DNA of 64,000 nucleotides from the NCBI RefSeq assembly GCF_000312505.2, contig NZ_HG326224.1, positions 1-64,000 on the forward strand. The letters run 5' to 3'. The notes under the pieces were generated by a model, which saw only the letters and a program-made list of their open reading frames with translations, did no database searches and was not told the DNA's origin. Origin of the DNA: Fenollaria massiliensis. GTDB lineage: Bacteria > Bacillota > Clostridia > Tissierellales > Peptoniphilaceae. Below, piece after piece: positions 34,414 to 38,272 of this stretch; the stretch's first letter is position 1, and every line of letters starts with the position of its first letter. Made by a program: the position numbers and the translations under genes.

Positions 34414-35157
34414 ATGGCTCGTGATATTACAATTAATGCAATTAAAAGATTACCTATCTACTATGTGATTTTTGAAGATCTATACGCAAGGGGCGTACAT
34501 AGGGCCTCTTCGAGTGAGCTATCAGCGTACACTAAATTTACCGCCTCTCAGATAAGAGCTGACTTAAACACTTTCGGCGCTGAGGGCAGACAAGGTTATG
34601 GTTATCACGTTGAGACCATATACATGGACTTAAAAGGCGTTCTAGGTCTTGATTATAAGAAAAACTTAATTTTAACTGGTGTTGGCAATATTGGTCAAGC
34701 GATAATACAGTCTCGTGAGTTTGAATCAAGCGGCTTTAAATTTATTGGCCTATTTGATAGCAATCCTAATATGATTGGCCTTAGCTTTAATGGTATCAAG
34801 GTTAGAAATATTTCTGAGCTTGAAGATTTTGCTAAAAACAATACTATCGATATAGGTGTAATTGCTGTTACAAGTAATAGTGCGAGGGACGTTGCTAGAA
34901 CTTATGAAAAAATTGGTATAAAAGCGATTTGGAACTTTGCTCCAACTGTGCTTGATTTAGATACGGACATCATAGTTGAGAATGTACCTTTATCAGAGAG
35001 TTTATTCACGCTAAACTATTTACTTAAATGCAAAAATGACGGTACTTTTACAAGTGATGACTATGTCAATAGAGCAAAAAATATTGTTTATGATAAAAAA
35101 TTAGGACTATACAGGGAGTCAAAAAAGAGGGGCAGACCCAGAAAGGAGGATAATTAA
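34414..35157 (+). CDS. rex: Redox-sensing repressor Rex with AT-hook-like tail
   Basis: The 247-residue product has a winged helix (RASSSELSAYTKFTASQIRAD, FGAEGRQGYGYHVE) and an NADH-binding Rossmann domain (ILTGVGNIGQAI). Rex senses NADH/NAD+ and represses fermentation and redox genes. ATG 34414 after AAAGGTG is chosen; an upstream extension overlaps the -10. Typical Rex proteins end near residue 210; this one has about 35 more, ending KKRGRPRKEDN, with RGRP at 239-242 like a eukaryotic-type AT-hook. The stop overlaps the next start by one base. Confidence 0.93.
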   Translation: MARDITINAIKRLPIYYVIFEDLYARGVHRASSSELSAYTKFTASQIRADLNTFGAEGRQGYGYHVETIYMDLKGVLGLDYKKNLILTGVGNIGQAIIQSREFESSGFKFIGLFDSNPNMIGLSFNGIKVRNISELEDFAKNNTIDIGVIAVTSNSARDVARTYEKIGIKAIWNFAPTVLDLDTDIIVENVPLSESLFTLNYLLKCKNDGTFTSDDYVNRAKNIVYDKKLGLYRESKKRGRPRKEDN

Positions 35158-36062
35158 TGAAACTTGAATTAATTGATATTAAAAAATCCTTCGCTGGAAA
35201 AGAAGTTTTACATGGAATTAACTTAGAGACAAGTTCCGGTAGTTCAACTGCTTTTTTAGGAAGGAACGGTGCTGGTAAGACGACTACCATAAGGATACTT
35301 ATGGATGTATTTAAAGCTGATAGCGGAGAGATACTGATTGATGGCTCGCCAATTGACAGAAAAGAGATTAAACTTGGATATTTACCTGAAGAGAGGGGCA
35401 TGTACGCAAAAACTGCCATACTTGATCAGCTTATTTACTTTGGCAGAATAAAAGGACTTTCTAAAAAAGAAAGCCATGACAATGCTATAGAGCTGCTTGA
35501 AAAAGTTAAGCTAAGTGAATATAAGGCAAAAAATCTTGATACCTTATCAAAGGGTAATCAACAAAAAATACAAATCATACAAACATTTATAAACAAGCCA
35601 GACATCATTATTCTTGATGAGCCATTTTCTGGTCTTGACCCAGTTAACTCACAAATACTTATTGATTTAATCAAAGAGGCCGTTAATGAAGGTACTTTAC
35701 TAATATTCTCATCTCATCAAATGAGTCATGTAGAAAATTTCTGTGACAATATTGCTCTTATTAAAGATGGCAGCAATGTTTTGACTGGTAATCTTAAGGA
35801 AATCAAGAAAAATATGGGTGAGGGAAGATTAAGACTAAGTTTTTACAATGATGCTGTAAATTATTTACAAGATATTTTTGATATGGTCGGACAAGATAAT
35901 GTCAAGATTACTGACAATGACATAATTGTAAGAACTTCTGATAAAGCTAGTGAACTAGCTAATTACGCTATAAATAAAGATAATTTTAGAGCTATAGCTA
36001 AATACGAGCCAAGTCTTGAAGAGATATTTATAGAAGCGGTAGGTGATAACGATGTTAAATAA
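35157..36062 (+). CDS. ABC exporter ATPase, NatA-like
   Basis: A 301-residue ATPase with Walker A GRNGAGKTT, Q-loop LGYLPEERGMY, signature LSKGNQQKIQIIQTF (a KGN variant common in NatA-type proteins), Walker B IIILDEPFSGLDP and H-loop FSSHQ. It pairs with the ABC-2 permease that starts inside its end. NatAB systems export Na+ in Bacillus; here that is an inference from similarity. It begins at the rex stop codon, so it is in the rex operon. Confidence 0.85.
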   Translation: MKLELIDIKKSFAGKEVLHGINLETSSGSSTAFLGRNGAGKTTTIRILMDVFKADSGEILIDGSPIDRKEIKLGYLPEERGMYAKTAILDQLIYFGRIKGLSKKESHDNAIELLEKVKLSEYKAKNLDTLSKGNQQKIQIIQTFINKPDIIILDEPFSGLDPVNSQILIDLIKEAVNEGTLLIFSSHQMSHVENFCDNIALIKDGSNVLTGNLKEIKKNMGEGRLRLSFYNDAVNYLQDIFDMVGQDNVKITDNDIIVRTSDKASELANYAINKDNFRAIAKYEPSLEEIFIEAVGDNDVK

Positions 36063-37287
36063 GATAAAACTAATAAGTTCATTTGAGTTTAAACAGCTTA
36101 TAAAAAATAAATCATATAAAATAACTACTGCTATATTCTTTGCTTTAGCCTTGCTTGCAGCTTTTGCACCAAGACTTATTCAAGGTAATTTATTCAAATC
36201 CATCACTGAAGAATTAAATAAGACTCAAAAGCTAGGTATAATTATAGATGATGATAATATTGACGAAAGTGAATTAAAATCATTTTTAAGTAATTATGAA
36301 GTTCATTTATATACTGATGAAGAAAAGCTAAAAGATGATGTATTAAGTAAAGAACTTGATAGAGGGGCAATTATCGATGCTGACTCAATTCAAAAATTTG
36401 TATTAAACTCTAAACTTACTGATATGGGCGATAGCTTAGATGGGGCTTTAAATGAATACAGATATAAAAAACTTATTGAATCAGAAGGAATTGATTATAC
36501 AAAGCTTAAATCAATAGAGGCAAATCAATACCAAATAAATGAAGTAGTGCTAGGAAAGGACTCAAAGCAAAACTATTTTATAATTTATATCTTGTTATTC
36601 TTATTATATATGATTATATTAACTTATGGTCAAATAACAGCAACATCTGTAGCTAAAGAAAAGAATGACAGAACTATGGAGCTTTTAATCACGTCAACTA
36701 AACCAAAGTACTTGATACTAAGCAAGGTTTTAGCAACAGTATTTAGCGCTGTACTACAAGTTTCAGCTATATTTATAGGTTTTGCTGTAGGATACTTATT
36801 TAATAAAGAATACTGGTCTGATATATTTAGCATTACAAGTGCACCTATACAATTGGTTGTAACATTCATCTTGTTTATGATAGCGGGCTTCTTCTTATAC
36901 TTGTTTATATTTGCAACACTTGGAGCACTAGTTAATAAGATAGAAGAAGTTAGTCAATCAATATCATCGGCGACTATTTTGATAGTACTTGCTTATTTTG
37001 GAGCTATATTTGCATTAACTACTGGATCAGAATCAAGCTTTGTTACATTCTTATCATACTTCCCACTAACATCACCATTTGTCATGTTTATTAGGGCAGG
37101 TATGCTAAATATATCAATCGCTGAGGTAGCTCTATCATTTGCAATACTAGTAATATCAGCATATTTAATTTATAAATTAGCTTGTGACATATATAGATTA
37201 GGTACACTTCAATACGGAAACAGAATGACACTAAAGCAAGCGTTTAAAGCATTAAGAGAGGATAAGAAGAATAAAAATAATGAATAA
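36052..37287 (+). CDS. ABC-2 type permease, NatB-like
   Basis: The 411-residue product has one N-terminal membrane segment (about 22-38), a large extracytoplasmic domain (about 45-180) and five to six C-terminal membrane segments, as in NatB/YhaP-type ABC-2 permeases; VAKEKNDRTMELLITSTKP is the characteristic loop. ATG 36052 overlaps the ATPase gene by 11 bp. Its stop overlaps the DNA glycosylase start by 8 bp. The exported substrate is unknown; Na+ is plausible. Confidence 0.82.
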   Translation: MLNKIKLISSFEFKQLIKNKSYKITTAIFFALALLAAFAPRLIQGNLFKSITEELNKTQKLGIIIDDDNIDESELKSFLSNYEVHLYTDEEKLKDDVLSKELDRGAIIDADSIQKFVLNSKLTDMGDSLDGALNEYRYKKLIESEGIDYTKLKSIEANQYQINEVVLGKDSKQNYFIIYILLFLLYMIILTYGQITATSVAKEKNDRTMELLITSTKPKYLILSKVLATVFSAVLQVSAIFIGFAVGYLFNKEYWSDIFSITSAPIQLVVTFILFMIAGFFLYLFIFATLGALVNKIEEVSQSISSATILIVLAYFGAIFALTTGSESSFVTFLSYFPLTSPFVMFIRAGMLNISIAEVALSFAILVISAYLIYKLACDIYRLGTLQYGNRMTLKQAFKALREDKKNKNNE

Positions 37288-38237: not shown

Positions 38238-38272
38238 TATAATTGTTAGCACTCAATAGTGACGAGTGCTAA
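38238..38272 (+). promoter_or_regulatory. groES promoter -10 with CIRCE operator
   Basis: TATAAT at 38238-38243 is followed at once by the perfect CIRCE element: TTAGCACTC (38246-38254), 9-base spacer, GAGTGCTAA (38264-38272). HrcA binds CIRCE and represses chaperonin genes until heat or misfolding. The -35 (around 38215) is weak. Confidence 0.95.

Follow-up and report, generated by a model that had tools for sequence, protein, structure and literature searches.

The locus analysed in this study raises the question of whether the C-terminal end that follows the core of a Rex repressor, closing in an AT-hook-like segment, is a genuine part of the protein, and whether it would provide the repressor with a second contact with DNA. 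The window examined is a 64,000-nucleotide stretch of Fenollaria massiliensis (contig NZ_HG326224.1, positions 1 to 64,000). The initial annotation had placed at 34414-35157 a Rex repressor with a C-terminal AT-hook-like tail, and this was confirmed by the translation, the profile match and the KKRGRPRKEDN end. The features of the locus are as follows:

34414-35157, + strand: rex gene, 247 amino acids (ORF translation)
34414-34644, + strand: winged-helix half at the N-terminus (residues 1-77), carrying nine unusual substitutions by the conservation test; Pfam PF06971 matches residues 8-52 with 48.5 bits
34654-34944, + strand: Rossmann (NAD-binding) domain, Pfam CoA_binding match at residues 81-177, GxGxxG intact, Tyr100 replaced by Ser (Pfam, alignments)
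34987-34989, + strand: codon 192, Pro; mostly His in other Rex, Asp in Thermotoga maritima (alignments)
34993-35040, + strand: predicted last core helix (AlphaFold2 model), residues 194-209, the counterpart of the helix that is domain-swapped in solved Rex structures
35020-35154, + strand: genus-specific C-terminal segment of 45 residues (203-247) after SLFTLNY, about 39 of them beyond the Rex profile (profile, alignments, model)
35122-35145, + strand: AT-hook-like KKRGRPRK, residues 237-244 (Pfam AT_hook match, three-species comparison)
35140-35149, + strand: ribosome-binding sequence AGAAAGGAGG of the ABC ATPase gene, recognized by eye, doubling as tail codons 243-246
35157-36062, + strand: ABC transporter ATPase gene, whose ATG overlaps the rex stop by one base (TAATG)
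36043-37287, + strand: ABC-2 type permease gene, overlapping both flanking genes

With reference to its identity, the protein aligned over residues 3-208 to NCBIfam NF003990 with 245.6 bits against a cut-off of 233, which identifies it as Rex, and nothing else in the 1.71-Mb genome matches the Rex N-terminal family. The winged helix, the Rossmann fold, the GxGxxG motif and a last helix predicted to be capable of swapping were all present, and the closest solved structures, both by sequence and by fold, were those of Thermoanaerobacter Rex/RSP. The core had earlier been said to end near residue 210, in agreement with the profile match stopping at 208; the extra segment was likewise borne out, but its length, put at about 35 residues, was too short by the profile. 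The translation ends in RESKKRGRPRKEDN, with RGRP at residues 239-242 as previously reported. A whole-protein search found matches in 124 of the 130 family genomes, and the named Rex of highest identity (53%), among the best 80 of at least 578 relatives, belongs to a metagenome-assembled Tissierellia bacterium (L039).

The gene neighbourhood places this gene among its relatives. In five relatives an ABC-F gene lies divergent from rex, and ogg, groES and groEL follow, while in the genus the ABC ATPase and permease genes, with overlapping ends, lie between rex and ogg. Since the neighbours are shared (ABC-F upstream, ogg-groES-groEL downstream), the rex of the genus is the orthologue in its usual place; in G002, one of the genus species, ABC-F is not adjacent to rex but about 5 kb upstream of it. 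In a comparison covering 27 family loci (flanks of 1.5 kb) and 80 distant ones, an ABC gene directly behind rex was observed in the genus only. In the Tissierellia bacterium mentioned above, rex and ogg are separated by a similar or related ATPase-permease pair, encoded on the opposite strand 1.5 kb from rex, suggesting that the transporter may have been in the neighbourhood before its direct linkage to rex. In a sister species (G001, L368 11948-12848), the ABC ATPase behind rex seems split, with residues 1-229 and 241-301 as separate matches, possibly through a frameshift. A perfect CIRCE element, the HrcA operator, stands before groES at 38246-38272 of the window. The transporter pair, the ribosome-binding sequence inside the tail codons and the remodelled core described below were all absent from the initial annotation.

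The tail was found, with few changes, in all three genomes of the genus. Of the 249 order genomes, the 246 outside the genus yielded no credible match when searched with the tail alone; one further match (E 0.0085) was discounted, as it crosses two stop codons. Among 391 sampled class genomes the same search found it in the two genus members drawn and nowhere else, and against the PDB it returned no relative (best match E 1.7). For comparison, we used 121 Rex rows from 120 family genomes outside the genus (one genome has two Rex, and one partial match was left out) and the 80 distant named Rex. Past the SLFTLNY point, C-termini measured 5-23 residues in the family (with one row incomplete at the edge of its stretch) and 5-31 residues in the distant set, and neither GRP nor RGR was found there in any of these 201 rows. 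The alignment with related genera that had been proposed for the tail therefore gave a divided outcome, the tail being kept throughout the genus but lacking a credible match in the rest of the order and any counterpart in the family rows. The earlier remark that AT-hook Rex proteins were not known to be described agrees with our finding no paper that brings Rex and AT-hook together in the open-licence literature.

Pairwise comparison of the three species, the only ones from which the tail is known, indicated that differences in the tail (209-247) affect 39-54% of synonymous sites and 3-7% of nonsynonymous ones, against 40-50% and 1-2% in the core. The tail pN/pS for the three pairs was about 0.08, 0.14 and 0.07, compared with 0.02-0.04 in the core, and nonsynonymous change in the tail ran at 2-6 times the core rate. 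Because synonymous divergence far exceeds nonsynonymous divergence, the tail is a translated and selected part of the protein, though a faster-evolving one than the core. Over codons 236-245, each pair displayed no nonsynonymous and two synonymous differences; codons 237, 240 and 242, that is three of the six codons 237-242, vary across the species, silently only. The part of the tail outside the hook is likewise conserved among the three species.

The KKRGRPRK segment, an RGRP core with basic flanks, was observed in all three species of the genus, one per chain. On the whole protein, Pfam AT_hook (PF02178) recorded 13.7 bits at residues 237-244, under the curated cut-off of 17.4; on the isolated tails of the three species it recorded 17.0, 16.6 and 14.8 bits, the best being 0.4 bits short of that cut-off. 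The codon pattern covering RGRP occurs at 25 places in the genome, and only two in-frame occurrences fall within open frames of at least 100 residues, namely rex and an ORF that we read as transposase-like, which harbors KKRGRPSK. This scarcity, together with the retention of the tail despite synonymous divergence, argues that RGRP in rex is more than chance. AT-hooks usually take the form of a flexibly tethered basic RGRP segment, and single ones are weak binders. The AlphaFold2 monomer (mean pLDDT 84.3) was mostly confident in the core, displayed a short predicted helix at 214-222 between the last core helix and the disordered stretch, and fell below 50 at residues 223-242, which are predicted to be disordered, as expected for a tethered hook. 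The distance from the core to RGRP is about 30 residues, which by our estimate would be enough in principle to reach flanking DNA. Judged from these sequence features, the tail most likely adds minor-groove contacts.

The core of the genus Rex was also found to be remodelled. In our conservation test, positions at least 95% conserved among Rex less than 70% identical to each sequence in turn were considered, and 199 other Rex (119 family and 80 distant, two partial rows being left out) served as controls. The genus Rex deviates at 10 of 48 conserved positions and the controls at 0.9 on average (s.d. 1.7); only the Rex of genome G050, with 15 unusual substitutions, deviates more. Nine of the ten changes fall in residues 1-77 (S6T, V9A, R18V, L20F, Q49A, F57E, Q59R, L69I and I76V), position 49 being Val instead of Ala in one genus species, and the tenth is D179V. 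The glycine loop GxGxxG, Asp115 and the conserved residues 12, 32, 33, 46, 48, 58, 61 and 64 are intact. Position 49 aligns with Lys49 of Thermotoga maritima Rex, a possible base contact according to PMC8836258, and, with an offset of two, with Arg51 of Streptococcus agalactiae Rex, which bonds guanine 7 according to PMC8376106. Arg at 59 may still contact DNA, since T. maritima has Lys there. In a tree of 119 family rows and 20 of the 80 distant rows, the stem of the genus was long (1.03), but its root-to-tip length (1.10-1.12) was ordinary against the family mean of 1.12, and long-branch effects were set aside as the source of the core changes. Elsewhere, Rex may be decaying or lost in G050 and in three other genomes (G048, G049 and G125).

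The NADH-switch positions are altered as well. Arg16', Tyr98' and Asp188 of Thermus aquaticus Rex are proposed participants in the open/closed switch (PMC6125430), and they align to positions 18, 100 and 192, where most relatives have Arg18, Tyr100 and His192. All three species of the genus have Val18, Ser100 and Pro192. Tyr100 is kept in 109 of the 121 family rows, with Ser in nine others, and in 79 of the 80 distant Rex; position 192 is His in 56 family rows, Arg in 43 and other residues in the rest, and His in 79 of the 80 distant Rex. Since 18, 100 and 192 are all substituted, the sequence suggests that a changed NADH response in the genus Rex is likely. Counting against this, the switch Arg of T. 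maritima is replaced by Met and yet the NADH form is adopted, with Tyr100' bonding Asp (PMC6125430), and nine family rows have Ser100. Eight of these nine Ser100 rows have Tyr192 and one (L306) has Ser192, and in them the aromatic residue may have moved across the nicotinamide pocket to the opposite side.

The operator searches began from TTGTKAA-N4-TTMACAA, the pattern that Rex repressors bind ahead of metabolic genes. With up to two mismatches allowed, its forward sites numbered 103, 83 and 77 in the three genomes of the genus, a slight excess over the 72, 54 and 68 of the reversed control. No perfect site was noticed among the matches listed for two of these genomes (G000 and G001), nor at the loci obtained from the third (G002), and at 17 inspected loci with one or two mismatches, 16 sites lay inside ORFs and one, in G002, was intergenic. 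For TTGTTAA-N4-TTAACAA with up to one mismatch, the genus genomes had 3, 4 and 2 sites and their reversed controls 3, 2 and 0, while over the 130 family genomes the totals were 180 for the pattern and 371 for the control. As this textbook operator is no commoner than the control across the family, its absence is uninformative on the tail. In all three species, the promoter of the acyl-CoA dehydrogenase gene holds, immediately downstream from a TATACT box, an 18-bp palindrome with a CGATA-N4-TATCG core (in G000 on contig C3 at about 101602-101619); within the 464 kb examined, 27% of the genome, no other intergenic site was perfect. As a changed operator it was rejected, since contig C3 showed no excess of such sites (1 against 2.6 expected with up to one mismatch, 24 against 30.2 with up to two). 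No recurring motif was seen by eye among 7-N4-7 palindromes before genes, and the Fe-alcohol dehydrogenase gene was without a separate promoter region. An operator set for the genus Rex was not found by these pattern and palindrome searches.

Taking these observations together, we hold at about even confidence that the gene encodes an orthologous and functional Rex with remodelled operator reading, a probably altered redox response, and an AT-hook on a disordered tether acting as a second DNA contact. Residues of base reading, of the wing and of the NADH switch would have changed in the ancestor of the genus, and an extension of about 39 residues would have been gained, probably when the ABC-transporter pair came directly behind rex; we infer that the arrival of the transporter was the cause of the tail. 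According to PMC8836258, the last helix of T. maritima Rex reaches into the partner subunit, where it packs against the first and fourth helices and the bending loop. The corresponding predicted helices of the genus Rex (7-25 and 66-76 in the AlphaFold2 model) hold V9A, R18V, L20F, L69I and I76V. With a dimer geometry taken from published Rex structures, each last helix would be expected to lie against the DNA-binding domain of the partner, so that the flexible tails would start near the DNA. Each RGRP core would then enter the minor groove at AT-rich sequences, whether next to the operator or at a distance from it, and the affinity of the hook would compensate for, or change, the reading by the winged helix. 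Weighing against this reading are the narrowly missed Pfam AT_hook cut-off, the presence of a single hook in each chain, the double use of codons 243-246, the faster nonsynonymous change of the tail relative to the core, and the ordinary root-to-tip length of the genus.

The same substitutions also allow a more radical and, in our judgement, rather unlikely reading of the sequence, in which the NADH switch would be dismantled, the major-groove reading head relaxed and binding supplied by the AT-hook, leaving a strongly selected sole Rex as an AT-DNA-tethered regulator that answers to another signal or to none. A possible but somewhat doubtful explanation of the tail is that it arose as a side effect of operon building, when the rex frame ran into the ABC leader, with its 3' end kept for the ribosome-binding sequence and translational coupling through TAATG instead of for the peptide. 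It is favored by the single base shared between the rex stop and the ABC start, by the placement of AAAGGAGG within codons 243-246, and by the direct position of the ABC gene behind rex being confined to the genus among the family and distant loci compared. It is also favored by an inspection by eye of the 27 family loci and the Tissierellia locus, where no ORF immediately preceding the ABC gene showed a tail-like C-terminus, three loci (L151, L160 and L169) giving no upstream ORF of at least 60 residues. As peptide and ribosome-binding sequence share codons 243-246, constraint there has two possible causes; however, the ribosome-binding sequence spans these codons only, whereas nonsynonymous change is held low over the whole tail and the variable codons among 237-242 are all silent.

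In another alternative, the tail would be functional without being a minor-groove hook, for instance as a stabiliser of the dimer or of the last helix through the predicted helix at 214-222, as an RNA or partner binder, or as a turnover signal. The conservation of the non-hook part and the helix prediction are in its favor, but the exact hook form of RGRP and its purely silent variation point to a hook, and we regard this alternative as improbable. Decay of the genus Rex, with the core substitutions as loss of function towards gene loss and the tail as drift, appears very improbable. Rex is without a match in G048, G049 and G125, which belong to the same family and are listed as 99% complete, and the Rex of G050 is strongly altered; nevertheless, the core ratio in the genus indicates strong purifying selection, and the glycine loop, Asp115 and the eight conserved residues are retained.

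Comparison with known systems places this protein in context. Its closest solved relative (188.4 bits), the RSP/Rex of Thermoanaerobacter ethanolicus (PDB 3wg9, 3wgg and 3wgi), has two domains in common with it, but the match stops at query residue 205 and no such tail is present; moreover, its Arg, Gln, Phe, Gln, Tyr and His at 18, 49, 57, 59, 100 and 192 are all changed in the genus Rex. Among bacterial proteins with AT-hook-like basic segments, Myxococcus CarD, which carries several hooks, and the Hin-type recombinases have domains unlike those of Rex. T. maritima Rex has the same fold and is likewise without Arg at 18 (Met18, PMC6125430), but it retains Tyr100, Asp191 and Lys49 in a chain of 208 residues. 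Rex is the standard NAD(H) sensor in many Gram-positives, a function usually assigned by annotation transfer; an orthologue that is conserved but has a substituted switch and a hook-like tail is a warning that regulons and redox logic cannot be assumed in this genus. In Mycobacterium tuberculosis WhiB7, a transcription factor like Rex, a C-terminal RGRP AT-hook grips the minor groove of an A-tract (PMC10245118), although WhiB7 is an unrelated iron-sulfur protein that works with a sigma factor, so that the likeness is one of analogy only. The genus thus offers a natural experiment in how a bacterial repressor would gain a second DNA contact, as WhiB7 did independently.
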